In this document: positions 10,121-55,447 of the stretch, piece by piece | Numbering within the stretch: the stretch's first letter is position 1 | How the letters are laid out: each line of letters starts with the position of its first letter | Assembly: GCA_937873695.1 (NCBI GenBank) | Contig: CALMYL010000020.1 | Location: 124,001 to 188,000, forward strand | From: an uncultured Ignavibacteria bacterium | Lineage (GTDB): Bacteria; Bacteroidota; Ignavibacteria; Tepidaquicellales; OLB5 | Length of the DNA: 64,000 nt | Reading direction: 5' to 3' | Position numbers and translations under genes: made by a program | Notes under the pieces: generated by a model | The model's database searches: none | The model's input: only the letters and a program-made list of their open reading frames with translations | What the model was told of the DNA's origin: nothing

Positions 10121-10562
10121 CAATTCAAGTCCAAACACAATCGTAGTTAACGGCGTAATGTATGTGCGCCAGGATACCATCGCAGTTGACAACAGACCCA
10201 TCGCCGAAAGAGTAAAGAGCTACGAAGATGCATGTCTTGTACTTGGCATCGAGCCCGCAGCTTCGCTGCCTGATGTCAATACAATCCTCGGTGAGAGCAA
10301 ATCAATTACCGCATTCGCAAAGCTTATCGTAATCACCCGCGCATTAAACGAAGGCTGGTCGCCAAACTGGAATGATGGCAGTGAATATAAATATTACCCA
10401 TGGTTCAAAATGAACAACTCGGGCTCCGGCTTGTCGTACGACGTCTTCGGTCTCTGGTATACGTATTCGGGTGTGCCGGCTCGCCTTTGCTTTAAATCTT
10501 TTGAGCTTGCTGAATACGCAGGCAATCAATTCATTGAACTATACACAGAATATTTTTTATAA
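10113..10562 (+). CDS. DGR target protein 1
   Basis: 149 residues, no signal peptide or membrane segment. The C-terminal half has the layout shared by the three target proteins: NDGSEYKYYPWFKM, then SGSGLSYD-V-F-G-L-WYTYSGVPARLCF and a short tail (ELAEYAGNQFIELY). Residues 103-126 are encoded by a variable repeat whose differences from the template all fall at template adenines. The family is found in Bacteroidota phages, with unknown ligand. It lies about 10.6 kb upstream of the template, in the early operon. An intracellular binding role is inferred from the lack of a signal peptide. Confidence 0.8.
   Translation: MNNNSSPNTIVVNGVMYVRQDTIAVDNRPIAERVKSYEDACLVLGIEPAASLPDVNTILGESKSITAFAKLIVITRALNEGWSPNWNDGSEYKYYPWFKMNNSGSGLSYDVFGLWYTYSGVPARLCFKSFELAEYAGNQFIELYTEYFL
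10419..10490 (+). repeat. DGR variable repeat of target 1
   Basis: Aligns without gaps to template 21027-21098. It differs at 15 sites, all adenines in the template (template positions 21029, 36, 48, 52, 55, 58, 60, 61, 66, 72, 78, 79, 86, 91, 95). No C, G or T of the template is changed. Confidence 0.9.
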
Positions 10563-20123: not shown

Positions 20124-20516
20124 ATGAAACAAACCGAGGCAAACAGGGTAAAATTTGATTACCCGGCTGCATTGAATCTTTACACTGAGTTCTGTAAAGA
20201 GAATAATTTGGAAGTAAATCTTCCATATGCAGAACCCGCAACGGAAGATGAAATGAACACCAACGCATTTGTGATGGTGAAAAACATCAAGCTTATTGGC
20301 AACAAAGGAGTTGTACCTAATTCCATCAATGCCAACGAGTGGAAATATTACCCATGGTTCAAAATCAACAATTCGGGCTCCGGCTTGTCGTACGACGACT
20401 ACGATCGCTGGTATACGTATTCGAATGTGCCGGCTCGCCTTTGCAGTTTGGATTCTGATAATGTAGAATCAGATGCAAATAAGTTTCAGCCAATTTACGA
20501 TATTTTACAAAGTTAA
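20124..20516 (+). CDS. DGR target protein 2
   Basis: 130 residues from ATG 20124, chosen for AAAGGAAT upstream. Shares EWKYYPWFKINNSGSGLSYD and the VPARLC end of the variable module with targets 1 and 3. Residues about 83-108 are encoded by the variable repeat closest to the template (10 changes, all at template adenines). The tail after the repeat (SLDSDNVESDANKF) differs from targets 1 and 3. No signal peptide. Ligand unknown. Confidence 0.8.
   Translation: MKQTEANRVKFDYPAALNLYTEFCKENNLEVNLPYAEPATEDEMNTNAFVMVKNIKLIGNKGVVPNSINANEWKYYPWFKINNSGSGLSYDDYDRWYTYSNVPARLCSLDSDNVESDANKFQPIYDILQS
20372..20446 (+). repeat. DGR variable repeat of target 2
   Basis: Aligns to the full template 21026-21100. 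Ten differences, all at template adenines (21029, 36, 48, 60, 61, 66, 72, 86, 91, 95). Confidence 0.92.
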
Positions 20517-20528
20517 ATCTAAACAAAC

Positions 20529-20990
20529 ATGAAAAAGAAATCAAAGAAGTTTCTGCAGTTGTGCAAAAAGTACAACGTAAACCCTGATGAAGTCAGGGAA
20601 GTTTTAAGCGTCAAGCAGGCATTCAAATTACTCAATCTTGATCTGTTTAAAATGCCTGGCGTTTCAAAAATACCAAAGAGATTCAGACTTTGGCTGGAGT
20701 GGCTGTACAAAATGGCGGTTGTTACTGAGGCATTCAATACGGACGAAAACGGAAAGCTTTGGATTCCGAATTACAATGATTCCAGTGAATATAAATATGA
20801 AATATGGTGGGATGTAAAGGCTGATAAGAAACACCCTTCGGGCTCCGGCTTGTCGTACGACGTCTTCGTTTGCTGGGTTACGGCTTCGGATGTGCCGGCT
20901 CGCCTTTGCTTTAAAAATCGGGACACGGCGATTTTTGTAGGCAAGCATTTTGCCAAAGAATTCAAGTTCGTTCAACTTCATTTTGAATAA
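20529..20990 (+). CDS. DGR target protein 3
   Basis: 153 residues. Basic N-terminus (KKKSKKFLQLCKKYNVNP), a middle region absent from target 2, then NDSSEYKYEIWWDV, SGSGLSYDVF and VPARLCFKN. Residues 103-127 are variable. It is the target nearest the template, 36 bp upstream. No signal peptide or membrane helix. Starts 12 bp after target 2. Confidence 0.8.
   Translation: MKKKSKKFLQLCKKYNVNPDEVREVLSVKQAFKLLNLDLFKMPGVSKIPKRFRLWLEWLYKMAVVTEAFNTDENGKLWIPNYNDSSEYKYEIWWDVKADKKHPSGSGLSYDVFVCWVTASDVPARLCFKNRDTAIFVGKHFAKEFKFVQLHFE
20836..20909 (+). repeat. DGR variable repeat of target 3
   Basis: Aligns to template 21025-21098. Sixteen differences, all at template adenines, including two double changes (21066-67 and 21072-73) in AAT codons. 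Confidence 0.92.
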
Positions 20991-21025: not shown

Positions 21026-21100
21026 TTCAGGCTCCAGCTTGTCGTACAACGACTACGATAACTGGAATACGAATTCGAATGTGCCAGCTCACCTATGCAG
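21026..21100 (+). repeat. DGR template repeat (TR), with 107-bp spacer to the RT
   Basis: 75 bp between target 3 and the reverse transcriptase, same strand. In the target frame it encodes SYNDYDNWNTNSNVPA: five Asn codons (AAC/AAT), the codon class that lets adenine mutagenesis reach many residues. Six adenines are changed the same way in all three variable repeats (29, 36, 48 near the 5' end; 86, 91, 95 near the 3' end), which suggests fixed homing or recognition segments. Eleven adenines between them vary. The spacer 21101-21207 probably belongs to the template RNA, as in Bordetella phage DGR; this is inference. Confidence 0.93.
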
Positions 21101-31311: not shown

Positions 31312-32277
31312 ATGGATCCTTCGTTGCACTCAGGATTAAAGAATTCGATAGAAGTTAAAGATCTGACGAAAAAGTACGGCAAGTTCACTTCGGTTGACAG
31401 CATTTCATTTGAAGTTGAACAGGGTGAAGTATTTGGATTCTTAGGCGCCAATGGCGCTGGGAAATCCACGACCATAAAAATGCTGTGCGCGATTCTGGAG
31501 CCGACAAGCGGCGATGCGATGGTCGCAGGATACAGCATAGAAAAAGAACCTGATATGGTAAAACGCAATATCGGGTATATGTCTCAAAAATTTTCATTGT
31601 ATACCGATCTTACCGTGGAAGAAAACATCAATTTCTTCGCAAGTGTGTACGGACTAAAAGGAACTGCACTGGATGACAGGAAAAAATGGGTTTTGAATAC
31701 TGCGGGGCTTACTGACCGGAAGGACTCTTTAACGGGAACGCTTTCAACAGGCTTTAAGCAAAGGCTTGCCTTAGGCTGCGCCGTGATACATGAGCCAAAA
31801 ATTGTATTTCTGGATGAACCGACGGGCGGAGTTGACCCGATATCGCGAAAAAATTTCTGGGACCTGATAAATGATCTCTCAACTAACGGTACAACTGTTT
31901 TTGTTACAACACATTATCTGGATGAAGCGGAATTCTGCAACAGGATAATGATGATAGACGCCGGAAAAATAATCGCAGGCGGCTCGCCGGGCGAGCTTAA
32001 GACAAAGTATCTTTCGAATCCCATTTTTGAAGCTGAAACCGGCAATGCTGATGCCGCAATAAAAATACTGGATAATATCCCCTGGATAAAAAGCAGCGCA
32101 TACTTTGGGGAGTACATACATATAACATTGAATAAAGATGAGCTGAATAATGCAGATACGCGGAAAAATGAGATTATAGAAATACTTGGCAAAAATAATA
32201 TTGGGGTTAACAGAATTGAAAGAATCGCTCCCTCACTTGAGGATGTGTTTGTTAATTTACTAGAGAAGGATAAATAG
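31312..32277 (+). CDS. ABC exporter ATPase 2 (YbhF C-terminal-half-like)
   Basis: 321 residues. Walker A GANGAGKST, Walker B IVFLDEPTGGVDP, H-loop VTTHYLDEAE. The signature is LSTGFKQRLALG, with Thr-Gly for the usual Gly-Gly, so the two ATP sites may not be equal. With ATPase 1 it equals a YbhF protein split into two genes 54 bp apart. Confidence 0.87.
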   Translation: MDPSLHSGLKNSIEVKDLTKKYGKFTSVDSISFEVEQGEVFGFLGANGAGKSTTIKMLCAILEPTSGDAMVAGYSIEKEPDMVKRNIGYMSQKFSLYTDLTVEENINFFASVYGLKGTALDDRKKWVLNTAGLTDRKDSLTGTLSTGFKQRLALGCAVIHEPKIVFLDEPTGGVDPISRKNFWDLINDLSTNGTTVFVTTHYLDEAEFCNRIMMIDAGKIIAGGSPGELKTKYLSNPIFEAETGNADAAIKILDNIPWIKSSAYFGEYIHITLNKDELNNADTRKNEIIEILGKNNIGVNRIERIAPSLEDVFVNLLEKDK

Positions 32278-32338
32278 ATTACAGATTACAGATTACAGAT
32301 TGCAGATTACAGATTACAGATTACAGATTGCAGATTGA
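32278..32338. repeat. Tandem AGATTAC/AGATTGC repeat
   Basis: About eight 7-bp units between the ATPase and permease genes. The reverse complement of the same unit appears at 37843-37880. Confidence 0.8.
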
Positions 32339-32439
32339 AAATTTTTTCTCTAAAAATAGTAAATATTGTCTGTACAAAAAAACGGAAAATATGCTATTAG
32401 TATTAATTGCTAATTGTTAATTGATCATTGTTAATTGAA

Positions 32440-42500: not shown

Positions 42501-43151
42501 AGGGAAAAACTTTCCCTGGAAAAGTCAGTGCTTGGCCTATATGTAAGCGCGCATCCGCTTAGCGATTACGAAGACGAGATAAACCTGCTTAACCCGTTCC
42601 GTTTCAGTGATGTTGCCGATGTTGATTCAGACGAAATTGATTTTGCCAAACTGCAGCGTGTAAGGATGTGCGGGATAATCACAGATATGAAAGTGAAAAT
42701 GAGCAAAAAGGGCAACCGCTTTGCTGTGTTCACACTCGAAGATTTTTCGGGTCAGGGCGAGTGTGTTGTATTCCCCAAAACCTACGAGCAGTTCAAAGAG
42801 ATCCTTCTGGATGATTCTATTGTTACATTAATAGGCAAAGCCGAAGAGAACGGCAATTCCGTGAAGCTGATAGTGGATGAAATAAAGCCGCTGGTAAAAT
42901 CAGCCGGCATTACCAAAATGCCTGAGACTATAACCATCAGGATTGATTCCAATAGCTTTGATGCAGCCAAATTATTTGAAATTAAGACTATTTTCAGGGG
43001 AAATGAAGGCGAATCAGCTGTAATCATACATCTTAAGAATGGTCATAAAGAAAGCTTAATGGAACTTGAAAATGTAAAAATACATTATGATAAATACACT
43101 GAAAAACTTTTAACAGAGATTTTCGGCAAAGATAATATTATATTGCAGTAG
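39594..43151 (+). CDS. dnaE: DNA polymerase III alpha subunit
   Basis: 1185 residues from a TTG start (no in-frame ATG before the PHP motif). PHP domain first (FIHLHNHSHYSLLDAICTIE), then the C-family polymerase core with GPGRGSAAGSLVCYALGI and PDIDIDFQD (catalytic Asp). The helix-hairpin-helix part is near residues 850-900, and an OB domain near 1000 (VRMCGIITDMKVKMSKKGNR). Replicative polymerase subunit. Length fits the DnaE1 class. Confidence 0.96.
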   Translation: MSKFIHLHNHSHYSLLDAICTIEGLVNAAKEHNMPAIALTDHGVMYGSMEFYNKAKKAGVKPIIGCEVYIVTKGSRLQKGKADEESDTLLGRDKSGKTIGKLSGRKSNYDHMVLLAKDLEGYQNLVKLCSIGHTEGFYYKPRIDSEILRNYSKGLVCLSACAGGVVSSHIARGDIAQAKEAAEIYKDIFGTEDFYLEMQNHGMSIEAKIREHVPALAKELGLKTIATNDIHYIKYEHHIPHNLYLYISTDLSKDKEGKNLETDLRYETDQVYFKSAEEMCKIFKDFPEAIQSTLEVADKCNLELPRGVYHMPDFPIPKESGAKTLDDYFRLLSHEGLREKIKNVTDADIERLDLELDVITKMKFSGYFLIVADFVNHAKRSGIYVGPGRGSAAGSLVCYALGITNVNPLDYNLLFERFLNPERVSMPDIDIDFQDDKRDEVIEYSRQKYGANSVSQIVTFNKLKTKAVLKDVGRVLNYPFDTINEITKLVPSVFGKIKSLTDCYNEIPEFKQYFDQAKEKKKLLDYAIVLENLNKNVSMHASGVVIAPSDISDYVPIAKAPQSDNQYMTQYDMKMLEDAGLIKMDFLGLKELKILQQAVDLIEQRHKIKIDLDSLPLNDAKTYEIFANGYTIGIFQFSKPKMREYLAKLKPKDINDLAAMNALYRPGPMDLIPEFIERKHGKKEVTYLHPDMEQVLKETYGVIVYQEQVMQLVRVIAGYSLAKADLVRRAMGKKDEKLMKEQEEEFIKGAAEKGYNKKVAKEIFKLILKFADYGFNKSHSVAYSVLAYYTAYLKTHYPLEFMTAQLNCRHEDMDEMVLLINECKRMKITLSLPDINECFAAFTINPAIENQILFGLAAIKNVGRTAVDNIVKERDKAGKFENFVDFVSRVDSRVVNKKTLEALIYAGAFDCFDKNRKKFYDNYEAAVHRYAAKKTESKGQSNLFDTGKKQQIKDVIFSRLPEDYRDWSDREKLSLEKSVLGLYVSAHPLSDYEDEINLLNPFRFSDVADVDSDEIDFAKLQRVRMCGIITDMKVKMSKKGNRFAVFTLEDFSGQGECVVFPKTYEQFKEILLDDSIVTLIGKAEENGNSVKLIVDEIKPLVKSAGITKMPETITIRIDSNSFDAAKLFEIKTIFRGNEGESAVIIHLKNGHKESLMELENVKIHYDKYTEKLLTEIFGKDNIILQ

Positions 43152-43242
43152 CAGCAAAAAGAAGTATTTAAACCATACGAGATAACAGCAGGGAAACGGA
43201 CAATTTTAAAATTACACAAATACTTATTTTAAAGGAGAGAAA

Positions 43243-43572
43243 ATGCATCCAATTGAATTCACAGACGCTAATTTTGACGCAGAGGTAATAAAATCAAATG
43301 TACCTGTACTGGTAGATTTTTGGGCTGTTTGGTGCGGCCCGTGTAAAATGATAGCGCCGTTTGTTGCAGAGCTTGCCGGCGAATATGAAGGTAAAGCTAA
43401 GATAGGAAAAGTTGATGTTGACAATAACCCAAACATATCTATGACATATGGAATCAGAAGTATACCTACAATTCTTATTTTCAGGGATGGAAAAGTAGTA
43501 GACCAGATCATAGGAGCGGTTCCGAAGCAGGCACTTGCTCAGAAACTTGACGCTCAGCTTCAGCCGGCTTAA
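43243..43572 (+). CDS. trxA: Thioredoxin
   Basis: 109 residues with AAAGGAGAG upstream. VDFWAVWCGPCKMIAPF holds the WCGPC active site; GIRSIPTILIF holds the cis-Pro. No signal peptide, so cytosolic. It reduces protein disulphides, e.g. ribonucleotide reductase. Followed by a terminator. Confidence 0.97.
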   Translation: MHPIEFTDANFDAEVIKSNVPVLVDFWAVWCGPCKMIAPFVAELAGEYEGKAKIGKVDVDNNPNISMTYGIRSIPTILIFRDGKVVDQIIGAVPKQALAQKLDAQLQPA

Positions 43573-43595
43573 TCATAAATTGAAGATTTTAATTG

Positions 43596-43626
43596 AAAGA
43601 CAGGTCATTGACCTGTCTTTTTTATT
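43596..43626 (+). terminator. Rho-independent terminator of trxA
   Basis: AGACAGGT/ACCTGTCT stem then a T-run. Confidence 0.85.
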
Positions 43627-43667
43627 TATTCCATTTTTTTATTAAATTTTGAGTAATTTTACAGCTA

Positions 43668-44411
43668 ATGTCACCCCAAATTGAAATATTGGAATTAATA
43701 CTGTTGTTTGCTGCAATCGCAGTTTTTACAGCCGGAATTGCAGGCTCCAGAATGAATCTGCAGGGGAAAAAATATTTTCGGTTATCATTTGTGGTAATAT
43801 TGGCACTTTCTGTGGTTATTATCCAAATGGCAGTGCTGACTTATTTAACAAAGTTTGAAATTTATTACGGATGGAACGCAGCAATAATGGTTTTTGCTAT
43901 TGCAGCAATTATCATATCGCCTTTCATTTTCAGAATAGCAGGCACATTAAGACCGGTCTTAAGGAGTTTTCCGGAAATGCGAAGGCAAAGCAAACCTGCA
44001 CTTCAGAATGCAGAAGAAGTTCCTGAATCTGTAGTTGATGAGCGGGCTGATTATGGGTCAAAATCTGCTGAAACGAAGCTTTCTGCTGAAATCACCGCAA
44101 TAACAGAGCTTGTTAATGACACAAAACCGTTTGGCATGGCACAGGATGAAATTAATCCAGAGAACGCAGCCGCAGAAAATATGACCGCAGATAAAGAAGA
44201 AAAATCAGCGGAGAAGCATATTGAGCCTGAAAACGAAAAAATAAAGGCTGCAGAATATCAGCTTGATTCTGATGTTACAGAAAAGGGCGCTGTTGAAAAG
44301 CTGCCAAAGACCAATAGCATAAAAAAATCACAGACCGGGAAACGTACACCCGTTAAGAAAGCACCTTCCCGGAAAACCGCTTCAAAAACAAAACGCCGCG
44401 GTAAGAAATGA
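43668..44411 (+). CDS. Membrane protein with acidic middle and Lys/Arg-rich tail
   Basis: 247 residues. Three membrane helices in the first 95 (LELILLFAAIAVFTAGIA, LSFVVILALSVVIIQMAVL, AAIMVFAIAAIIISPFIF), a Glu/Ala-rich linker, then a basic tail (KKSQTGKRTPVKKAPSRKTA). The tail resembles H1-like nucleic-acid-binding ends. Overlaps the lipoprotein gene by 4 bp. Function unknown. Confidence 0.6.
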   Translation: MSPQIEILELILLFAAIAVFTAGIAGSRMNLQGKKYFRLSFVVILALSVVIIQMAVLTYLTKFEIYYGWNAAIMVFAIAAIIISPFIFRIAGTLRPVLRSFPEMRRQSKPALQNAEEVPESVVDERADYGSKSAETKLSAEITAITELVNDTKPFGMAQDEINPENAAAENMTADKEEKSAEKHIEPENEKIKAAEYQLDSDVTEKGAVEKLPKTNSIKKSQTGKRTPVKKAPSRKTASKTKRRGKK

Positions 44412-45034
44412 AAAATATGAGTAAAATAACATTAATAATTGCTGCTGTTTTCACCCTAACTGCATTCAGCTGCAACTCGAGTGATACTAAATCTAAAATT
44501 GAAACCAAAAAATCTGAAAGCGGGAATTTTAATCCTTACTTTCCTTTGAAGGAAAACAACAAATGGGTATACATCAATGAAGCACCGCGCGAAGAGACGA
44601 TCACATTTACTGTTGAGATAAAGGATGTTAAAAAAGTTGAAAGTGGAATTCAGATGAAGGTCAGCTCGTTCCCCTATTTGACACAGGATAATGAAGAACG
44701 TACCCTGCTGGTTAAAAATAATGGTGAGATAGAAATAAATAATTACATGGGTACATCCGGTGTTATTATTCCTTCTCCTGACAATTTTAAGACAGGAAGC
44801 AAATGGAGCTTCGGAATATTCAATGCTTCTGTGAACAGTGAAAAGGAATTAGCTGTTACAGAAGACGGTACATATAACGACTGCATTTATGTGATGATGA
44901 CTGATGGTTTTACATTTTCATATGAAATGTGGTTTGTAAAAGATATTGGAATTGTTAAGTGGGGCGCAAACAGAACGAATCCCCCGCAGTTGACACCTAT
45001 TTATTACGTTTTAAAAGAACATAAGATAAATTGA
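44408..45034 (+). CDS. Lipoprotein of unknown function
   Basis: 208 residues (an ATG three codons in is also possible). Lipobox LTAFSC at about residue 22. The mature part has YFPLKENNKWVYINEAPREE, typical of a small Bacteroidota lipoprotein family with a 'pl..gn.W.Y' start. It sits 11 bp before the nuoJ-like gene. Confidence 0.65.
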   Translation: MKNMSKITLIIAAVFTLTAFSCNSSDTKSKIETKKSESGNFNPYFPLKENNKWVYINEAPREETITFTVEIKDVKKVESGIQMKVSSFPYLTQDNEERTLLVKNNGEIEINNYMGTSGVIIPSPDNFKTGSKWSFGIFNASVNSEKELAVTEDGTYNDCIYVMMTDGFTFSYEMWFVKDIGIVKWGANRTNPPQLTPIYYVLKEHKIN

Positions 45035-45045
45035 AATAAACAGTC

Positions 45046-45522
45046 TTGAAAGAAAGTCTATTCTATATCTTTGCTTCGGTTACTTTGCTGGCGGCGTTTT
45101 TTGCCGCATTTTCAGGGGAAGTCAAAACTTCACTTAAAGCAGCTGTATACCTAATGAGCGGTATTACCGGATTACTGCTGCTCCTGAACTTTCATCTTTT
45201 CGGTTTATTTTTGATCTTATTTTCATTACTTTTATTCTCACTTGTCATTCTGCTGAAGGAAAGAATTTCAGTTTATTTACATGATACCGGAGCCGTGGCA
45301 AAAGTTAATTTTGTTTCACTCCTCCTGATCAGTCTGATATCTGCCATACTAGCCGGGTTGCCCGGAGCGGCAAAATGGCCGCAGTTTGATATTATGTTCG
45401 GACCAAACTCTATTGGTTTGATATTTACAAAATATTTCGCAGCAATTTTAGGAATAGGGTTATTGGTTTCCGTGATCATATCAGCAGGTTATAATATTTT
45501 AAAGAATGAGGCTGCCGAATGA
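45046..45522 (+). CDS. nuoJ: NuoJ-like complex I membrane subunit (divergent)
   Basis: 158 residues from TTG, five helices. The end (FGPNSIGLIFTKYFAAILGI) matches the NuoJ 'iG..lf..y...fe..s' region, but with the usual Glu absent. The helix-3 region is far from consensus. Overlaps nuoK by 4 bp, as in nuo operons. See the findings on loss of proton-path residues. Confidence 0.7.
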   Translation: MKESLFYIFASVTLLAAFFAAFSGEVKTSLKAAVYLMSGITGLLLLLNFHLFGLFLILFSLLLFSLVILLKERISVYLHDTGAVAKVNFVSLLLISLISAILAGLPGAAKWPQFDIMFGPNSIGLIFTKYFAAILGIGLLVSVIISAGYNILKNEAAE

Positions 45523-45821
45523 CAGGAATCAACTATTATATATTCATTTCTGCTTTGGTATTCGGTTTAGGGCTGTACACATTGCTGACCGCTAAAGAGG
45601 CAATCCGAGTTATAATTGCGCTGGTTATGCTTTTTTCGGCGTCACTGATAAATATTGCTGCATTCAGCGGCTTTTGGGGATTCAATCCCGAAGGTCAGTT
45701 GATAATGTTTGCAGTAACAACGGTATGTTTATTAAATTTAGCCGCAGGTATAGTTTTGTTTGTGAACAATTTTAAAATGTATAAAAATAACTTGATAAAA
45801 GAGCCTGATCCCGTTGAGTGA
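45519..45821 (+). CDS. nuoK: NuoK-like complex I membrane subunit lacking key Glu
   Basis: 100 residues, three helices, typical NuoK length. Layout matches ('YYIFISALVFGLGLY', 'MLFSASLINIAAFSG', 'EGQLIMFAVTTVCLLNLAAG'). The two buried Glu essential for proton transfer in NuoK (near 36 and 72) are Val36 and Asn73 here. Overlaps the next gene by 8 bp. Confidence 0.75.
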   Translation: MTGINYYIFISALVFGLGLYTLLTAKEAIRVIIALVMLFSASLINIAAFSGFWGFNPEGQLIMFAVTTVCLLNLAAGIVLFVNNFKMYKNNLIKEPDPVE

Positions 45822-46245
45822 CTTATTCATAAATACTACTGCCTATTTTATAATTGCGGTTATAGTTTATATTGCTGCCGTAATTTTCTTTATCATGCTG
45901 ATTTCCCCGCGGGCAAGGAAAATAGCAGGCGAATATTTGGAGAAAATATCCAAAACAATAACGCATCAAAAATTCTACAGTTCTCTAAAGACTAGTTTTG
46001 CAAAATACCTGGCAAAGCCGCTTGGAAAAGCCATTTCAATTGTCTTTAGGTTTGTTTCAAATATTTCAGTTTACTTAAGAAAAGCTGAGGAAATCTTTAC
46101 ATCGAAAATACTTCCTCTAACAATAGAACCTGTAAATATTGCTTCGCTGCTTGTTAGAAAAGCGTATACAGATAGTCAAACTGCCGTCATAACAGTTTTG
46201 GCGAGCTTAATTGTGGCATTTTATTTCATTTTAACTGTTTTCTAA
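45814..46245 (+). CDS. Membrane protein in the place of NuoL/NuoM
   Basis: 143 residues from TTG. Helix near residues 10-32 and at the C-terminus (AVITVLASLIVAFYFILTVF), with a basic amphipathic middle. It may be the C-terminal part of a NuoL-type protein (long amphipathic helix plus last helix), or a new subunit. No antiporter core is present. Confidence 0.5.
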   Translation: MSDLFINTTAYFIIAVIVYIAAVIFFIMLISPRARKIAGEYLEKISKTITHQKFYSSLKTSFAKYLAKPLGKAISIVFRFVSNISVYLRKAEEIFTSKILPLTIEPVNIASLLVRKAYTDSQTAVITVLASLIVAFYFILTVF

Positions 46246-46272
46246 AATTGTTATTATTGCAGTTTAGTACTT

Positions 46273-46423
46273 GCCGACATGGCGGAATTGTCCGAACTCA
46301 CTTTAACAAGTTAAAGCAAGTCGAGCGCTCTAAAACTCAAAATCCAGTAATGGCAACATTGTAACGGTGAGAGTCCTTGACTTACAGAGCTGCGGCAGCA
46401 GCGAAGGAAGTCGTTTGGCGGTG
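46273..46423 (+). pseudogene. Degenerate tRNA-Leu copy A with arm insertions
   Basis: Matches the tRNA-Leu at 46493-46576 at both ends and over the anticodon/variable arm (ACTCAAAATC, TAATGGCAACATTGTAACGG). It carries a CTTTAAC/GTTAAAG hairpin insertion in the D arm and a GACTT/AAGTC hairpin insertion between T stem and acceptor. Anticodon-stem pairing is lost. Not a working tRNA. Confidence 0.8.
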
Positions 46424-46492
46424 AAAACATTTTGAGAGTAAAAAGTTTTTTACAGTAAGTATATACAGTTCATTTAATTTAAAGTTGTACAT

Positions 46493-46576
46493 GCCGCCAT
46501 GGCGGAATTGGTAGACGCGCTAGACTCAAAATCTAGTAATGGCAACATTGTAACGGTTCGAGTCCGTTTGGCGGTA
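46493..46576 (+). tRNA. tRNA-Leu (anticodon CAA)
   Basis: 84 nt class II tRNA: acceptor GCCGCCA/TGGCGGT (first pair G-T), anticodon stem CTAGA/TCTAG around CTCAAAA, long variable arm, T stem AACGG/CCGTT with loop TTCGAGT, discriminator A. CCA not encoded. Intact, and flanked by three degenerate copies. Confidence 0.96.
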
Positions 46577-46590
46577 CAGATATTAGTTAA

Positions 46591-46728
46591 GCGTGGAATT
46601 GTCGAAACTTTCTTTAACAAGTTAAAGCAAGTCAAGCGCACTAAGTTACAAAACCTGGTAATGGTTACATTGTAAGGGTGAGAGTCCTTGACTTAAAACG
46701 CTTTAGCGGAGGAAGTCGTTTGGCGGTA
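46591..46728 (+). pseudogene. Degenerate tRNA-Leu copy B with arm insertions
   Basis: Same CTTTAAC/GTTAAAG insertion in the D arm and GACTT/AAGTC hairpin (46690-46717) before the 3' acceptor TGGCGGTA. The 5' acceptor is lost and the anticodon stem is broken. Confidence 0.78.
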
Positions 46729-46743
46729 CAAATATTATTATAA

Positions 46744-46914
46744 GTGCGGAATTGATAGAAACTTTCAACTGCTCCGCAGTCGCAAGTCATAGCTTTCCAC
46801 TGGTACTTAGATAAAGCTTAAGCGCGCAAAGACTCAAAATCCGGTCATTGCCACATTATAACGGTTCGACTCCCTGACTTAAAACGCTTTAGCGGAGGAA
46901 GTCGTTTGGCGGTA
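46744..46914 (+). pseudogene. Degenerate tRNA-Leu copy C with larger D-arm insertion
   Basis: Keeps GACTCAAAATC and ACGGTTCGACTCC, plus the same 3' hairpin insertion and TGGCGGTA end as copy B. The D-arm insertion is longer and contains ACTGC/GCAGT pairing. Ends 20 bp before the GIY-YIG start. Confidence 0.78.
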
Positions 46915-46934
46915 CAAATCTTAAATCTTCATTT

Positions 46935-47207
46935 ATGAGTAAATTCTTTGTCTATTGCCTGTATTCTGATCTGCATGACAGGCTGTATATTGGACAGACA
47001 AATAATATTGAAAAAAGATTTAAGCAGCATAGTGATGGCAAAGTGCTTTCAACAAAGAAGTTCCTTCCTTACAGAATAATTTATTTTGAAGAAGTACCTG
47101 ACCGCTCTTCAGCGTTCCGGCGTGAAAAAGAATTGAAGGTTTCATCCAAAAGAAAGTTTTTAAGAAAATTGATCAATCACAATATAATTGAGCCAGGAAA
47201 CAATTAA
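46935..47207 (+). CDS. GIY-YIG endonuclease domain protein
   Basis: 90 residues, a stand-alone GIY-YIG domain: FVYCLYSDLHDRLYIGQTNN with the YIG motif, then R32 and FRREKELK. Small proteins of this group (UPF0213/URI type) are common in Bacteroidota. It lies between the tRNA-Leu array and nuoN; its last 20 bp overlap the nuoN start. It may be linked to spread of the tRNA-derived repeats; inferred only. Confidence 0.8.
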   Translation: MSKFFVYCLYSDLHDRLYIGQTNNIEKRFKQHSDGKVLSTKKFLPYRIIYFEEVPDRSSAFRREKELKVSSKRKFLRKLINHNIIEPGNN

Positions 47208-48639
47208 TATTCTTTTCAATTTTCTACCTGAAATAACAGCAGCCCTGACAGTTTTAATACTTAACATATTTACCGGTTCGGATAAAAAAGGAACCCGTTT
47301 AACTTATTACATTTTTGTCATAGGAATAGTGGCCTCGGCAATGTTCAGTTTTGCACAGGCGTATTACGCTCCTCAGCAATTGCTCTCGGGAATGTTCTGT
47401 GCGGATCATTATTCATACGCGGGCAGAGCAATAATGAGCTCGGTTATGGCAATATCAGCAGTGTCTTTTTTCGGCGGCAAAAGCAAACCGCACGAGCTTT
47501 CGCTTTCGCTGGTTTCTTATGCAGGAGCTTTACTTACCGTAAGTGCTTCAAATATATTCATGCTTTTTATTTCAATGCAGGTCATGCTGATTCCCCTTTA
47601 CTTGCTGACGCACTACACAATAAAACCTGTAATCAGGTATTTTGTGTTCAGTTCTTTGTTCACAGCCATAATGCTGTACGGTATTACACTTCTTTATGGT
47701 TTAACCGGCTCAGGTGAGTATACGTCTATTTCCAAATTCCTTTCTTTCAATCCTTTTAATACGCTCATTCTTGTTTTATCTTTTGTTCTGATCATCACCG
47801 GATTGGCGTTTGTTTCCTTACTTGCACCGTTTAACTTAAGTTTCCCCGTGTTCAGCAATAAGCTAAAGAATGCTCACCTGGTGCAATTCACAATTATCAA
47901 TGTTACCGCGGTTCTGTTTGCAGCGGGCAGGTTTATTTATACCGCATTTCAGGATCACAACACCTTTATCACAACTGCCGGGAATATAAGTTTCATTGGC
48001 GGAGTGAACTGGAAGTTAATGCTTGCGGTGATCTCGGTTTGTTCAATCCTTGCCGGTAACCTGGTAATATTATGGCAATATGACCTGAAGAAGATAACAG
48101 TATATATAATTATTTCACAAACAGGATATCTGCTTACCGGGATAATTTCTGGTTCACAACAGGGGCTTGCAGCAATGTTGGCCGGCGCCGTGATTCTTGC
48201 CGTAAATTCCATTGGGCTGTTTTATTGTGTTGAACTCATTAACTCACGCTATAATGTAACTGAAACTTCGGGGCTAAAGGGGCTTGGAAGAAGTGACAAA
48301 TTACTGTTTATTGCATTCATATTTTTTCTTTCATCATCCGCCGGGTTTCCGCTTACCTCCGGCTTTAACTCCAAACTTATTTTATATTCGCTTCCCGGTA
48401 TGCAAGGCTATTTTTGGCTCATAGCAGCGGGAATTTTTTCATCGGCAGTATTTCTGTTCTTCATATTCAGACTATTAGTAGTTTTGTTTACCGGTAAAAA
48501 TGCCCAAAATCCCCCTAAAATTGGAACGGGACCCCTCATTATATTGTTAATTCTGTTGTTTCCTGCGATATTCTTTAGTATTTTTATTTCCCCACTTTTG
48601 AACTGGGCAAATTATTGTTCAAATCTATTCGGAATTTAA
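47188..48639 (+). CDS. nuoN: NuoN-like antiporter-type subunit lacking key charged residues
   Basis: 483 residues from TTG 47188, inside the GIY-YIG gene; about 14 helices. Homology to NuoN is clear over 'LIPLYLLTHYTIKPVIRYFV' and 'GLAFVSLLAPFNLSFP'. Where NuoN has Glu in helix 5, Lys in 'GFK....PFH' and Lys in the next helix, this protein has Gln131, Val209 and Val239, and the His of PFH is Asn216. The later Lys (SGFNSKLILY) is kept. It may be structural without pumping. Confidence 0.78.
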   Translation: MSQETINILFNFLPEITAALTVLILNIFTGSDKKGTRLTYYIFVIGIVASAMFSFAQAYYAPQQLLSGMFCADHYSYAGRAIMSSVMAISAVSFFGGKSKPHELSLSLVSYAGALLTVSASNIFMLFISMQVMLIPLYLLTHYTIKPVIRYFVFSSLFTAIMLYGITLLYGLTGSGEYTSISKFLSFNPFNTLILVLSFVLIITGLAFVSLLAPFNLSFPVFSNKLKNAHLVQFTIINVTAVLFAAGRFIYTAFQDHNTFITTAGNISFIGGVNWKLMLAVISVCSILAGNLVILWQYDLKKITVYIIISQTGYLLTGIISGSQQGLAAMLAGAVILAVNSIGLFYCVELINSRYNVTETSGLKGLGRSDKLLFIAFIFFLSSSAGFPLTSGFNSKLILYSLPGMQGYFWLIAAGIFSSAVFLFFIFRLLVVLFTGKNAQNPPKIGTGPLIILLILLFPAIFFSIFISPLLNWANYCSNLFGI

Positions 48640-48663
48640 AGAAATAGTAACGTATATGTGGTA

Positions 48664-48694
48664 TTGTTAACATACACCATTTATACTATGTTTA
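48664..48694 (+). promoter_or_regulatory. Probable glmS promoter
   Basis: TTG (48664), 20 bases, TATGTTTA (48687-48694), one base off TAnnTTTG. Confidence 0.5.
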
Positions 48695-48738
48695 CTGGTA
48701 AATAAGTCCGATTTTTAAACATTTAAACAAATAAATTA

Positions 48739-50583
48739 ATGTGTGGTATTGTTGCATATTTAGGTAATAAACAGGCACTTCCGATCATTTTAAGCGGTTT
48801 GAAGAAGCTTGAATACAGGGGATATGATTCCGCCGGTGTTGCGCTTATGTTTGATAACGAAATAGCCGTCAGGAAAACCGCAGGTAAGGTAACTGATCTC
48901 GAAAATCTTTTGGGCACCAACGGGTACGATCAAAACGCCAGCATAGGTTTTGGCCATACACGCTGGGCTACACACGGTGAGCCCAATAACCGCAATGCAC
49001 ACCCTATATTTGATGAAGGCAACGAAATAGTTGTAATTCACAACGGCATTATCGAAAATTACAGCGTACTTAAAACAAGACTTGAACGCGAAGGATACCA
49101 GTTCATAACTGATACCGATACTGAGTGCCTTGTGCATTTAATTCGCTCACACTACAAAAACGTAATGGATTTTGAAACCGCGGTTAGACTTGCTCTTGCT
49201 GAAGTTGACGGAACATACGGAATGTGCGTGCTTTCAAAATTCGACCCCGACAAAATTATCGCAGCAAGAAAAGGCTCACCGTTAGTTCTAGGTGTTGGCG
49301 AGGGCGAGTTCATTATCGCATCTGATGCGACAGCAATTGTACCATACACCCGCCAGGTGCTTTACCTGATGGATGGCGAAATGGTTATTTGCGATAAAGA
49401 TAAGTTTGAGATCAAGACAATACATGATGAAGTAATAGAGCGTGAGCTTGAAGAGATTACATTTGATCTTGAAGAGATAGAAAAAGGCGGATATGAACAT
49501 TTCATGCTCAAGGAGATTAATGAGCAGCCTGAATCTATCACAAACACAATGCGCGGAAGGATAATTAAGGAGAACGGACTTGTTAAGCTTGGCGGCTTAA
49601 TGAACGTTACCGATAAATTAAAATTCGCGCCAAGGATAATTATTTCAGCATGCGGAACGGCATGGCATGCCGGTTTGGTTGGCGAATATATGATAGAACA
49701 GATGTGTAAAATTCCCGTTGAGGTTGAATACGCATCGGAGTTCCGTTACCGCAACCCGGTAATTTACCCCAACGATATAATGTTCGTTATCAGCCAGAGC
49801 GGTGAAACCGCTGATACACTTGCAGCGCTTAAAGAAGCAAAATCACGAGGCGCTGATGTGTATGGCATAGTAAATGTTGTTGGAAGCACTATCGCAAGGG
49901 AAACACATGCGGGGGTATACACTCACGCGGGACCCGAAATTGGTGTTGCTTCAACAAAAGCGTTCACTTCACAGCTTACGGGACTTGCGCTCATATCGCT
50001 TATGATAGCGCAGTACAGAAATTCACTGCCTGCACATGAAATTAAGGAAATTACTGATGAACTGCTGAGAATTCCCGAGAAAATAAAAGAAATACTTACT
50101 TTAAACGATAAGATACTTGAAATTGCAAAAGTATTTAAGTTCTGCCAGCACATGTTATACCTGGGCAGAGGTTATAACTTCCCTGTTGCGCTTGAAGGCG
50201 CATTAAAGCTTAAGGAAATATCATACATTCACGCCGAAGGATATCCAGCGGCTGAAATGAAACATGGTCCGATTGCTTTAATTGACCAGAATATGCCGGT
50301 AATTGTGATTGCACCTAAGGATTCAACTTACGAGAAAGTAATTTCAAATATCCGCGAAGTTAAGGCAAGAAAAGGCGTTGTGATAACTATCACCGATTTT
50401 GACAGCGATAGCCACATCGAAGAGTACTCTGATTACATCATTAAGATTCCTCATACTTTGGAGATGCTCTCCCCTATTTTAACGACTATCCCGCTGCAGA
50501 TGCTTGCATACCACTTAGCGGTGCTGAGGGGCTGTAATGTTGACCAGCCGCGCAACCTGGCAAAGAGCGTTACTGTGGAATAA
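48739..50583 (+). CDS. glmS: Glutamine-fructose-6-phosphate aminotransferase
   Basis: 614 residues. N-terminal class II glutaminase with nucleophile Cys2 (MCGIVAYLG), GHTRWATHGEP and NGIIENY; then two SIS domains (ISACGTAWHAGL, SQSGETADT, GRGYNFPVALEGALKLKEIS) and the usual LAKSVTVE end. Makes glucosamine-6-phosphate for cell-wall and LPS precursors. Own promoter and terminator. No GlmS ribozyme seen upstream. Confidence 0.97.
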   Translation: MCGIVAYLGNKQALPIILSGLKKLEYRGYDSAGVALMFDNEIAVRKTAGKVTDLENLLGTNGYDQNASIGFGHTRWATHGEPNNRNAHPIFDEGNEIVVIHNGIIENYSVLKTRLEREGYQFITDTDTECLVHLIRSHYKNVMDFETAVRLALAEVDGTYGMCVLSKFDPDKIIAARKGSPLVLGVGEGEFIIASDATAIVPYTRQVLYLMDGEMVICDKDKFEIKTIHDEVIERELEEITFDLEEIEKGGYEHFMLKEINEQPESITNTMRGRIIKENGLVKLGGLMNVTDKLKFAPRIIISACGTAWHAGLVGEYMIEQMCKIPVEVEYASEFRYRNPVIYPNDIMFVISQSGETADTLAALKEAKSRGADVYGIVNVVGSTIARETHAGVYTHAGPEIGVASTKAFTSQLTGLALISLMIAQYRNSLPAHEIKEITDELLRIPEKIKEILTLNDKILEIAKVFKFCQHMLYLGRGYNFPVALEGALKLKEISYIHAEGYPAAEMKHGPIALIDQNMPVIVIAPKDSTYEKVISNIREVKARKGVVITITDFDSDSHIEEYSDYIIKIPHTLEMLSPILTTIPLQMLAYHLAVLRGCNVDQPRNLAKSVTVE

Positions 50584-52491: not shown

Positions 52492-54057
52492 ATGAAAACA
52501 ATAGTACTTTCTTCATTTCCAAAAGTATATGTTAATTGTACTGGATATTTTTGCCATACTATAAAAATTATCATTCTACTCAGTCTATTCTCAGTTTCAT
52601 CATTTAGTCAGCAAGATCCAATTTCTTCAGGAGAACAAATTGAACCATTAAGTCAACTTTTGAGATCCAATAATTTTAAAACACCATTTGATATCGGAGT
52701 GCAGGGAGTATTTTCAGAATCCGGATTGGTGGATCCAATTTATTCCACGAATTACGATATTCCATTTACAATTACATGGGAAAATGTTGGCGGGACCGGG
52801 ACTACAGACGGTTTGATTTTGGCAATTGCAGTAGATGCATCCGGTAATGTATACGCTGGGGGAAATTTTCTAACAATTGTAGGAATATCCGCAAATCGTA
52901 TCGCAAAATGGAACGGAAGCAATTGGTCTGCTTTGGGTTCCGGATTAGATGGAGAAGTGGGAGCAATTACCATCATTGGAAATGATGTTTATGCTGCAGG
53001 AAGTTTTAATACTGCCGGCGGTGTAACTGTTAACAGAATTGCCAAATGGAATGGCAGTTCATGGTCAGCACTTGGTACAGGATTGAATTTTTTTGCAACA
53101 TCTTTAGCAGCAAGCGGTGGTAATTTGTATGTAGCCGGGGGATTTACAACTGCAGGCGGGATAACTGTCAACCACATTGCGCTTTGGAACGGTAGTTCAT
53201 GGTCGGCACTTGGAACAGGTACAAACAATAATATTACTACAATTTCCGTAAACGGCAATAATGTTTATGCTGGAGGTATTTTTACTACTGCAGGGGGAAT
53301 GTCCGCGAATTATATTGCTAAATGGAACGGAAGTTCTTGGTCTGCTCTTGGTACCGGAATGAATACCTTTGTGAATTCAATTGCTGTTAACGGCAGCGAT
53401 GTTTACGCAGGAGGCAATTTTACAACTGCGGGCGGAATATCAGCAAGCCGGATAGCGAAGTGGAACGGGAGTTCGTGGTCTGCACTCGGTTCAGGTTTAA
53501 ATAATACGGTTCGGTCAGTTCAGATTATTAGTAATATTGTTTTTGCAGGCGGTAATTTTAATAATGCGGGAGGAATATCTGCAATACGTATTGCTAAATG
53601 GAATGGGAGTTCTTGGGCTGCTCTTGGCTCAGGTGTAAATGCTGAACTGTTTGCAATTTATCCCAATACCACTGATGGGAAGATCTATGTGGGTGGTAAT
53701 TTTACGAATGCAGGAGGTATAACGGCATCAAAAATTGCAAGATTTAATGACAGTGAAACTCCAGTAGGTATTTCACAATATCAAGAAATTCCGGGTGAAT
53801 TTAAATTATTCAGTAATTATCCAAATCCCTTTAATCCCAAAACCAAAATAAAATTCAGTCTGCCGCATGCAGGGAATATTAGATTAACTGTTTATGATGC
53901 TTTGGGAAAAGAGGTTATTGTACTGGTGAATGAAAATCTGCAGGCAGGGATATATGAAACTGAATTTGAAGCGGCAAATATTCCAAACGGTGTGTATTTT
54001 TACAGGATAGAAACTGCCGGATATAAAGAAACAAAGAAAATGGTTGTGGTTAAGTAA
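52492..54057 (+). CDS. T9SS-secreted protein with seven propeller-like repeats
   Basis: 521 residues. N-terminal signal region (ILLSLFSVSSFSQQ); about seven repeats of 45 residues with 'YAGGNFTTAGGI....IAKWNGSSWSALGTG'; then a C-terminal sorting domain from about residue 440 (NYPNPFNPKTKIKFSLP, GVYFYRIET, MVVVK end). Type IX secretion would place it on the surface or outside. Repeats are similar at DNA level, so recent expansion is likely. The phage protein at 641-2710 has the same repeat type. Confidence 0.88.
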   Translation: MKTIVLSSFPKVYVNCTGYFCHTIKIIILLSLFSVSSFSQQDPISSGEQIEPLSQLLRSNNFKTPFDIGVQGVFSESGLVDPIYSTNYDIPFTITWENVGGTGTTDGLILAIAVDASGNVYAGGNFLTIVGISANRIAKWNGSNWSALGSGLDGEVGAITIIGNDVYAAGSFNTAGGVTVNRIAKWNGSSWSALGTGLNFFATSLAASGGNLYVAGGFTTAGGITVNHIALWNGSSWSALGTGTNNNITTISVNGNNVYAGGIFTTAGGMSANYIAKWNGSSWSALGTGMNTFVNSIAVNGSDVYAGGNFTTAGGISASRIAKWNGSSWSALGSGLNNTVRSVQIISNIVFAGGNFNNAGGISAIRIAKWNGSSWAALGSGVNAELFAIYPNTTDGKIYVGGNFTNAGGITASKIARFNDSETPVGISQYQEIPGEFKLFSNYPNPFNPKTKIKFSLPHAGNIRLTVYDALGKEVIVLVNENLQAGIYETEFEAANIPNGVYFYRIETAGYKETKKMVVVK

Positions 54058-55149: not shown

Positions 55150-55415
55150 ATATCACCCTTTCAGGGTTTCATTCATTCTCTTCATTTCATTCTACAAAAA
55201 TTCCACTCCTTCGGAGTTGCATTCCAGTTAAATATGGCGGGAAATTAACTTTGGGGATAGGCAATAGTATTGTGGATAAGATTATGGTACAGTATTAATC
55301 CCGAAGGGGTGACATTATTGTAAACAGAATCAGATAATCAAATAATCCCGAAGGGATGACATTATTGTAAACAGAATTAGATAAACCAGCAAACCCCGAA
55401 GGGGTGACATTATAA
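55150..55415. repeat. Tandem array of CCCGAAGGG-type units
   Basis: Three units of 'CCCGAAGG(G/A)(G/A)TGACATTAT' about 42-45 bp apart, the first two sharing 'TGTAAACAGAAT.AGATAA', preceded by CACCC/GGGT and ACTCC/GGAGT palindromes. Related units at 57292-57360. Confidence 0.75.
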
Positions 55416-55419
55416 TAAA

Positions 55420-55447
55420 AAAAGGAACGCAATATTGCGTTCCTTTT
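55420..55447 (-). terminator. Terminator of the M28 peptidase gene
   Basis: AAGGAACGCAA/TTGCGTTCCTT stem with a T-run on the minus strand. Confidence 0.8.

Follow-up and report, generated by a model that had tools for sequence, protein, structure and literature searches.

A GIY-YIG nuclease gene beside hairpin-bearing degenerate tRNA-Leu copies in an Ignavibacteria genome: a candidate tRNA-targeting cassette

The tRNA-Leu locus

The window, which is the whole stretch of 64 000 nucleotides analysed from an uncultured Ignavibacteria bacterium, contains an intact tRNA-Leu(CAA) gene accompanied by three degenerate copies and by an open reading frame (ORF) for a small GIY-YIG protein. The features of the locus are as follows (window coordinates; all on the + strand).

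45814–46245, +: upstream neighbour of 143 aa without a Pfam match; forms the left edge of the locus and lies partly within the high-identity tract
46273–46423, +: degenerate tRNA-Leu copy 1; 5' and 3' acceptor-like ends kept; 93% identity over 42 nt and 94% over the first 18 nt of the tRNA
46296–46321, +: D-arm hairpin insert of copy 1, ACTCA-CTTTAACAAGTTAAAG-CAAGT; G011 has an insert at the same position
46379–46412, +: T-stem hairpin insert of copy 1, type X (GACTT...AAGTC)
46493–46577, +: intact tRNA-Leu(CAA), the parent gene; found by ARAGORN; Rfam 58.9 bits
about 46590–46729, +: degenerate tRNA-Leu copy 2; 5' acceptor strand gone; 82% identity to copy 1 over 108 nt
46607–46632, +: D-arm hairpin insert of copy 2
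46690–46717, +: T-stem hairpin insert of copy 2, type Y
about 46744–46915, +: degenerate tRNA-Leu copy 3; 83% identity to copy 2 over 104 nt
46761–46787, +: D-arm hairpin insert of copy 3; stem unlike those of copies 1 and 2
46791–46818, +: extra hairpin of copy 3
46876–46903, +: T-stem hairpin insert of copy 3, type Y
46935–47207, +: stand-alone GIY-YIG nuclease ORF, 90 aa; Pfam PF01541, 54.3 bits; 3' end overlaps the nuoN start
47188–48639, +: downstream neighbour, NuoN-like antiporter subunit; Pfam PF00361, 83.1 bits; right edge of the locus

The initial annotation had described a tRNA-Leu(CAA) flanked by three degenerate, hairpin-bearing copies, and this layout was borne out by ARAGORN, Rfam and BLAST. 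A BLAST search with the tRNA-Leu returned three fragments (E values of 1e-14, 7e-9 and 6e-6) and an 18-nt 5' piece (E 3e-4). A 42-nt block is present in four copies, three of which are 79–93% identical to the reference copy. The three degenerate copies were not scored as tRNA by Rfam, even at E ≤ 1. The 5' acceptor strand is missing from copies 2 and 3; the T-loop motif GTTCGAGTC is gone from copies 1 and 2, and copy 3 retains GTTCGACTC.

The D-arm insertion, previously taken to be common to the copies, is a hairpin in 3/3 of them, but it is the same hairpin in copies 1 and 2 only, which have CTTTAACAAGTTAAAG in common; in copy 3 a different stem stands between the retained ends (ACT..AAGT). 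The GACTT/AAGTC hairpin is likewise present, but its position is within the 3' strand of the T stem (CC|GTT) and not at the junction of T stem and acceptor. Cross-pairing of the D-arm and T-stem inserts (AAGTC with GACTT) was discounted and is not counted as evidence, because both hairpins carry these ends and the pairing is automatic. A group I intron in the tRNA-Leu, or another known RNA family, was also considered and rejected: the tRNA-Leu is uninterrupted, Rfam gave the tRNA, one sub-threshold antisense match and nothing else at 45000–48500, and the nuclease ORF is not inside an intron or intein.

The nuclease gene

The nuclease ORF begins nineteen bases past copy 3. Its product is 97% identical to its counterpart in G005 and 96% identical to that in G011, and in an alignment of 19 sequences the GIY-YIG catalytic residues Tyr7, Tyr18, Gly20, Arg28 and Glu64 are invariant, with His32 conserved in at least 90%. 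A Pfam scan of the protein gave GIY-YIG and a marginal, overlapping T5orf172 match only, and no known DNA-binding module. The best profile matches of solved structure were UPF0213 proteins (PDB entries 1zg2, E 4e-15, and 1ywl, E 2.5e-12), followed by SLX1. Membership of the I-TevI-type homing endonuclease lineage was rejected: TIGR01453 scored 25.2 bits against a cut-off of 56.05, a C-terminal DNA-binding module is lacking, and UPF0213/SLX1 match best. By sequence profile, the predicted lineage of the nuclease is UPF0213/Slx1-like.

No integrase was seen among the ORFs at 43000–50000 by reading; the Pfam scan covered the nuclease and four neighbours. At two other loci (L102 and L114), nuclease ORFs read on towards tRNA-Leu-like sequence (an MAELVD-type tail), a possible source of spurious annotation.

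The same locus across the genus

The upstream ORF was located in 12 of 13 genomes of the genus, one being without a match. The intact tRNA-Leu adjoins it in 11 of these 12, and the remaining locus ends at a contig end. Nuclease and degenerate copies are both present in six genomes (that of the window, G002, G004, G005, G008 and G011), and neither was detected in five (G003, G006, G007, G009 and G012) by BLAST, for two of them also by eye. Insert-bearing units, sought in relatives, were thus found at the same locus in five other members of the genus, with related forms next to many tRNA genes in many phyla. The first 84 nt of the window tRNA-Leu(CAA) are 100% identical in the element-free relative G009.

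D-arm hairpins occur in all six carriers and have common ACT..AGT ends with differing stems. T-stem types X and Y occur together within one copy in G005 and in G011, and therefore the hairpins come and go.

Linkage of nuclease and tRNA genes across bacteria

Named genomes were scanned with an alignment of Leu-type nucleases, and the best 80 of 270 relatives were kept. Because the query was the window's own subfamily, the 80 loci represent that one subfamily and the counts are silent on GIY-YIG proteins at large. A tRNA gene lies within 600 bp of the nuclease in 64 of the 80 loci (best 80 of 270), compared with 2 of 116 control positions 2.6 kb away. As read from the listing of these loci (best 80 of 270), the nearest tRNA is on the strand of the nuclease in 64/64. 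In nine of the 14 loci where no tRNA was present within 1 kb, a fragment of one lies no more than 350 bp away (control 0/18). Where a tRNA does lie within 1 kb (66 loci), a degenerate copy of the same tRNA was found in 52 (mismatched control 2/66), and the nuclease is sandwiched between intact tRNA and pseudo-copy in 41. Many pseudo-copies are without half the tRNA.

The nuclease tree has 97 rows and 81 columns, and its forks are mostly unresolved; only the label-shuffle result was used. The tRNA labels change 35 times over 83 rows, whereas the minimum in shuffled sets was 55 when labels moved freely and 49 when they moved within phylum (500 shuffles each). Nuclease clades track tRNA identity across phyla. 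The tRNA-labelled rows span 19 named phylum-level labels, many rows being metagenome bins whose single phylum assignments may be wrong. Cultured carriers include Flavobacterium beibuense and Gelidibacter gilvus.

A phage origin of the nuclease was considered and rejected: relatives occur in ten Rhizobium phage records, and in the single record inspected no tRNA is annotated within 2.5 kb. A scan of viral contigs for nuclease relatives gave none, and plasmids gave two weak matches.

Architecture of the pseudo-tRNAs and empty sites

In these sequences, the recurrent unit is a stand-alone GIY-YIG gene on the same strand as an intact tRNA, usually within 600 bp of it, often with a pseudo-copy of the same tRNA on the other side. 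A palindrome replaces or expands one arm of the pseudo-copy, most frequently the anticodon arm and at times the D or T arm. Two layouts were seen: tRNA, GIY-YIG gene, hairpin and tRNA 3' end, or tRNA 5' end, hairpin, GIY-YIG gene and tRNA.

A perfect hairpin (arm of 6 or more, loop of 3–10) was found in 61 of 74 pseudo-tRNA regions, compared with 246 of 1277 windows taken as controls; the criterion is not exclusive, since 21 of 51 intact tRNAs satisfy it too. Automatic insert mapping was noisy, and hairpin counts were taken from this analysis and from a set of 46 cases, in tRNAs of standard length, where a hairpin abuts a tRNA fragment. The hairpins cluster at tRNA arm boundaries, and 36 of the 46 start with TCC, CCC or ATCC/AATCC. 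The tRNA sequence breaks off at positions 18–28 in 16 of 20 hairpin junctions and picks up again at 42–46 in 14 of 26 and at 54–57 in 6 of 26; the anticodon arm is therefore the usual replacement, followed by the stretch before the T loop.

At all 17 of the 5'-type loci, the sequence before the pseudo-copy is unlike that before the intact tRNA (identity 0.47–0.68). The flanks of the 20 3'-type loci differ in 11 (0.42–0.65), match in seven (0.85–1.0) and gave no value in two; the seven loci with same-looking flanks are simple tandem duplications. Two empty sites in G009 could be compared with occupied ones. The original flank of the empty Gly(tcc) site follows, in the window's genome, the pseudo-copy and not the intact tRNA, and the original terminator of the empty Val(tac) site follows the last pseudo-copy. 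Since the original flank follows the pseudo-copy at these loci, the cassette appears to have entered the tRNA, with one intact tRNA restored.

The identity tract

Between the window's genome and G005, identity is 0.60–0.63 just upstream of the array, 0.81–0.97 where the array and the nuclease align and 0.60–0.78 in nuoN. A like identity peak, extending further upstream, was obtained for G011. Fourfold-degenerate sites agree at 18/24 and 19/24 in the nuclease versus 60/145 and 59/143 in nuoN (Fisher p of 0.0034 and 0.0007, respectively). The sharp-edged peak looks like a gene-conversion tract in these alignments, to which slow evolution of the nuclease could contribute. The nuclease is absent from sister alleles (six with, five without) and the flank carries the identity tract, which is the pattern of co-conversion. 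Together, the empty sites, the differing flanks and the sharp-edged peak indicate insertion and gene conversion.

Degenerate tRNAs and palindromes elsewhere in the genome

A degenerate copy lies within 1.5 kb of 14 of the 42 tRNAs tested in the window's genome, set against matches in 4/236 comparisons in the mismatched-locus control of the BLAST search. For 10 of these 14, no nuclease gene was seen in the stretch examined, which counts against reading nuclease and array as one cassette. The search for degenerate copies is incomplete: an Ile(tat) copy in G009 was seen by eye and missed by the search. The Val, Pro(cgg), Ser, Arg(acg) and Leu(gag) copies carry a T-loop double hairpin of type TCCCGAAGGGACTCCTTTGGAG, in some cases diverged, and the Cys, Ile(tat) and Gly copies have a TCCCG..CGGGA-like hairpin in place of an arm. 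Allowing three mismatches at most, 26 double hairpins were counted in the genome (reversed control 0); most of those inspected outside tRNAs are, by eye, nested in the loop of another hairpin.

The suggestion in the initial annotation that the T-stem hairpin is akin to a palindrome family holds in so far as CTTA...GGAAG examples occur elsewhere in the genome. As a genome-wide family, CTTA..GGAAG was rejected: the loose pattern (422/397) was not above its reversed control (564/527), and for this reason no count uses it. Individual palindromic examples are what supports this family.

Eleven GIY-YIG matches were found in the genome, and eight of them are strong and in small proteins. Those on contigs C14 (three), C4 and C20 are near tRNA genes or near a tRNA cut by the contig end, and that on C13 adjoins a tRNA-Cys pseudo-copy; for those on C10 and C18, ARAGORN gave no tRNA in the 3-kb stretch. 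Several contig ends fall in tRNA arrays. Beside a 16S rRNA end (L058 at about 189–640, G000:C23), degenerate Ile(gat) and Ala(tgc) copies with double hairpins sit between and past the tRNAs that follow the rRNA, where an element-free relative has a short, plain spacer.

G009, element-free at the Leu locus, has the full set of nuclease, hairpin and pseudo-copy at two other tRNA genes, Pro(cgg) and one Met. At its Gln(ctg) locus (L302), about six tandem 111-bp pseudo-tRNA units bear TCCCGACAC..GTGTCGGGA hairpins, with no nuclease gene in the stretch inspected. Using the best 30 tRNA loci per genome, degenerate copies were found at 14 of 60 tRNAs in two genomes with nuclease relatives (G009, 3/30; the window's genome, 11/30) and at 0 of 62 in two genomes without a detected one. 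Over 59 genomes, palindrome excess per Mb correlates with nuclease number (rho 0.355, p 0.006, kinship uncorrected).

Other features of the window

Four related 75-bp repeats (10418–10492, 20372–20446, 20837–20911 and 21026–21100) differ mainly where the copy at 21026 has A. Judged from sequence, they look like a diversity-generating retroelement in which one repeat is the template and the other three are variable. At 55296–55437, a 47-nt unit containing CCCGAAGGGGTGACATTATTGTAA is repeated in tandem, and its tail is the same as that of repeats flanking a Y1 transposase gene (L308); the array is probably a REP array of RAYT type. Six tandem units at 138-nt spacing, with 66–77% identity to a reference unit, lie at 52843–53640, and a tandem array of the 14-mer AGATTACAGATTGC lies at 32262–32350.

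Proposed element and alternatives

In our reading, the array and the GIY-YIG gene are probably one tRNA-targeting cassette, spread by homing-like double-strand-break repair. The nuclease is presumed to be active and mobile. It would cut the tRNA gene on a cassette-less chromosome; repair off a cassette-bearing chromosome, with the two tRNA parts as homology arms, would copy in the nuclease, the hairpin and the new flank and would restore one intact tRNA. Later breaks or unequal exchange could multiply the units in tandem. The hairpin in each pseudo-copy would take away the cut site there, a presumed protective role, and the three Leu copies of the window would be such amplified, protected copies. 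Against the protection step, copy 3 still has the GTTCGACTC T-loop. The T-loop-type motif GTTCRANTC is present in 53 of 65 intact tRNAs of nuclease loci. The intact tRNA of the element equals that of the element-free relative, so some other safeguard against self-cutting is required. That the protein is a bare catalytic domain also counts against the cassette reading.

Ordinary tandem duplication of tRNA genes with decay, in which REP-like palindromes later enter dead copies and the nuclease is a bystander, is a rival that we consider unlikely. A bystander is hard to reconcile with the linkage of nuclease and tRNA (64/80 loci, control 2/116), with the complete co-occurrence of nuclease and copies at the Leu locus or with nuclease clades that track tRNA isotype. 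Duplication does describe the Val, Ser, Pro and Arg arrays, which duplicate the tRNA with its terminator, and the seven of 20 3'-type loci with near-identical flanks, but not the 17/17 5'-type loci at which flanks differ. Later entry of palindromes agrees with the double hairpins found outside tRNAs, and a bystander role with the many arrays of this genome that are without a nuclease; the concentration of hairpins at arm boundaries speaks against this rival.

It seems improbable that RAYT (Y1) transposases with a preference for the hairpin loops of pseudo-tRNAs moved the palindromes as REPs. The genome has seven Y1_Tnp matches above the cut-off, one of these genes is about 300 bp from a double hairpin nested in the loop of another hairpin, and TCCCG..CGGGA palindromes lie 0.4–1.1 kb from three of six Y1 genes inspected; however, the repeated palindromes that directly flank the Y1 genes at these six loci are, by eye, of other families (for example CCGCGAAGCGGTGACATT or CCGACCCC..GGGGTCG repeats) and not those of the pseudo-tRNAs. 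Little credence is given to a role of the hairpin-armed copies as structured RNAs with a function of their own, for instance in decoying tRNA-cutting toxins or in signalling the processing of the nuclease mRNA: hairpin sequences do vary while the same arms are affected, and several pseudo-copies retain tRNA parts on both sides of the swapped arm, but half of the tRNA is missing in many copies, the window copies are not recognized as tRNA by Rfam, and promoter and terminator scans were not above the shuffled background.

Beyond the cassette itself, we raise more tentatively the possibility that the stand-alone Slx1-like GIY-YIG nuclease represents a class of very small mobile elements, widespread in bacteria, resident within tRNA genes and with one tRNA identity per lineage. 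The nuclease may also seed the palindromes (TCCCG..CGGGA and double hairpins) that take the place of arms in tRNA copies and are scattered over the genome. Should it indeed move palindromes, this would be a new class of element. In the open-licence literature, which mostly excludes subscription papers and preprints, we found no description of GIY-YIG genes with pseudo-tRNAs in bacteria.

The initial annotation had offered tRNA-derived repeats and integration scars as explanations. Both pointed in the right direction, and its interpretation is partly supported overall; it was incomplete without the adjoining GIY-YIG gene, the recurrence at 14/42 tRNAs and the layout of insertion with regeneration. 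The cassette reading gives a large set of minimal GIY-YIG proteins, for which a repair function is the usual guess, a concrete role as tRNA-gene parasites, and ties cellular genomes to the recently shown amplification of phage tRNAs by SegB. It would account for the several contig ends of the assembly that fall in tRNA arrays, and it suggests a testable source for some of the dispersed palindromes of bacteria. Annotators may need caution with degenerate tRNAs and with spurious ORFs that run from nucleases into tRNA genes.

Comparison with known systems

Integrative elements that target tRNA genes by means of integrases insert at a tRNA gene, restore one intact tRNA and leave a displaced fragment. 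The present loci are alike in that one tRNA is regenerated with a fragment at the other end (the 41/66 sandwiched loci and the Gly(tcc) empty site), but the cassettes are only a few hundred base pairs long, and reading of the ORFs that surround the window array showed no integrase. Small dispersed repeats of cyanobacteria were reportedly treated by Elhai in 2008. The likeness to these and to REP/RAYT systems lies in short palindromes that occur genome-wide and are nested in the loops of other hairpins; the difference is that the palindromes here are at pseudo-tRNA junctions linked to a GIY-YIG gene.

Prokaryotic Slx1-like proteins are described, in the parts available to us of a 2006 survey of the superfamily (PMC1564403), as minimal single-domain proteins with a predicted role in DNA repair and methyltransferase neighbours. 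The present proteins share the minimal single GIY-YIG domain and match UPF0213/Slx1 structures best, whereas a linkage to tRNA genes is unmentioned in those parts of the survey.

SegB, a free-standing GIY-YIG nuclease of T-even phages, cleaves DNA within tRNA genes and causes tRNA and nuclease to be amplified in tandem, according to the portion of PMC13096335 available to us. The motif given there is RAWTSGAAC, whose reverse complement, by our own derivation, is close to the tRNA T-loop consensus. How the intact tRNA escapes cutting is posed there as an open question for the phage, and hairpin-armed pseudo-tRNAs are unmentioned in that portion. Both systems have a free-standing GIY-YIG nuclease in a tRNA region, but SegB is a phage protein acting on phage tRNA clusters, whereas the present proteins are cellular, 80–90 aa long and nearer to UPF0213/Slx1. 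Being UPF0213/Slx1-like and not I-TevI-type by profile, the nuclease would therefore be SegB-like in its working while standing outside the SegB lineage.
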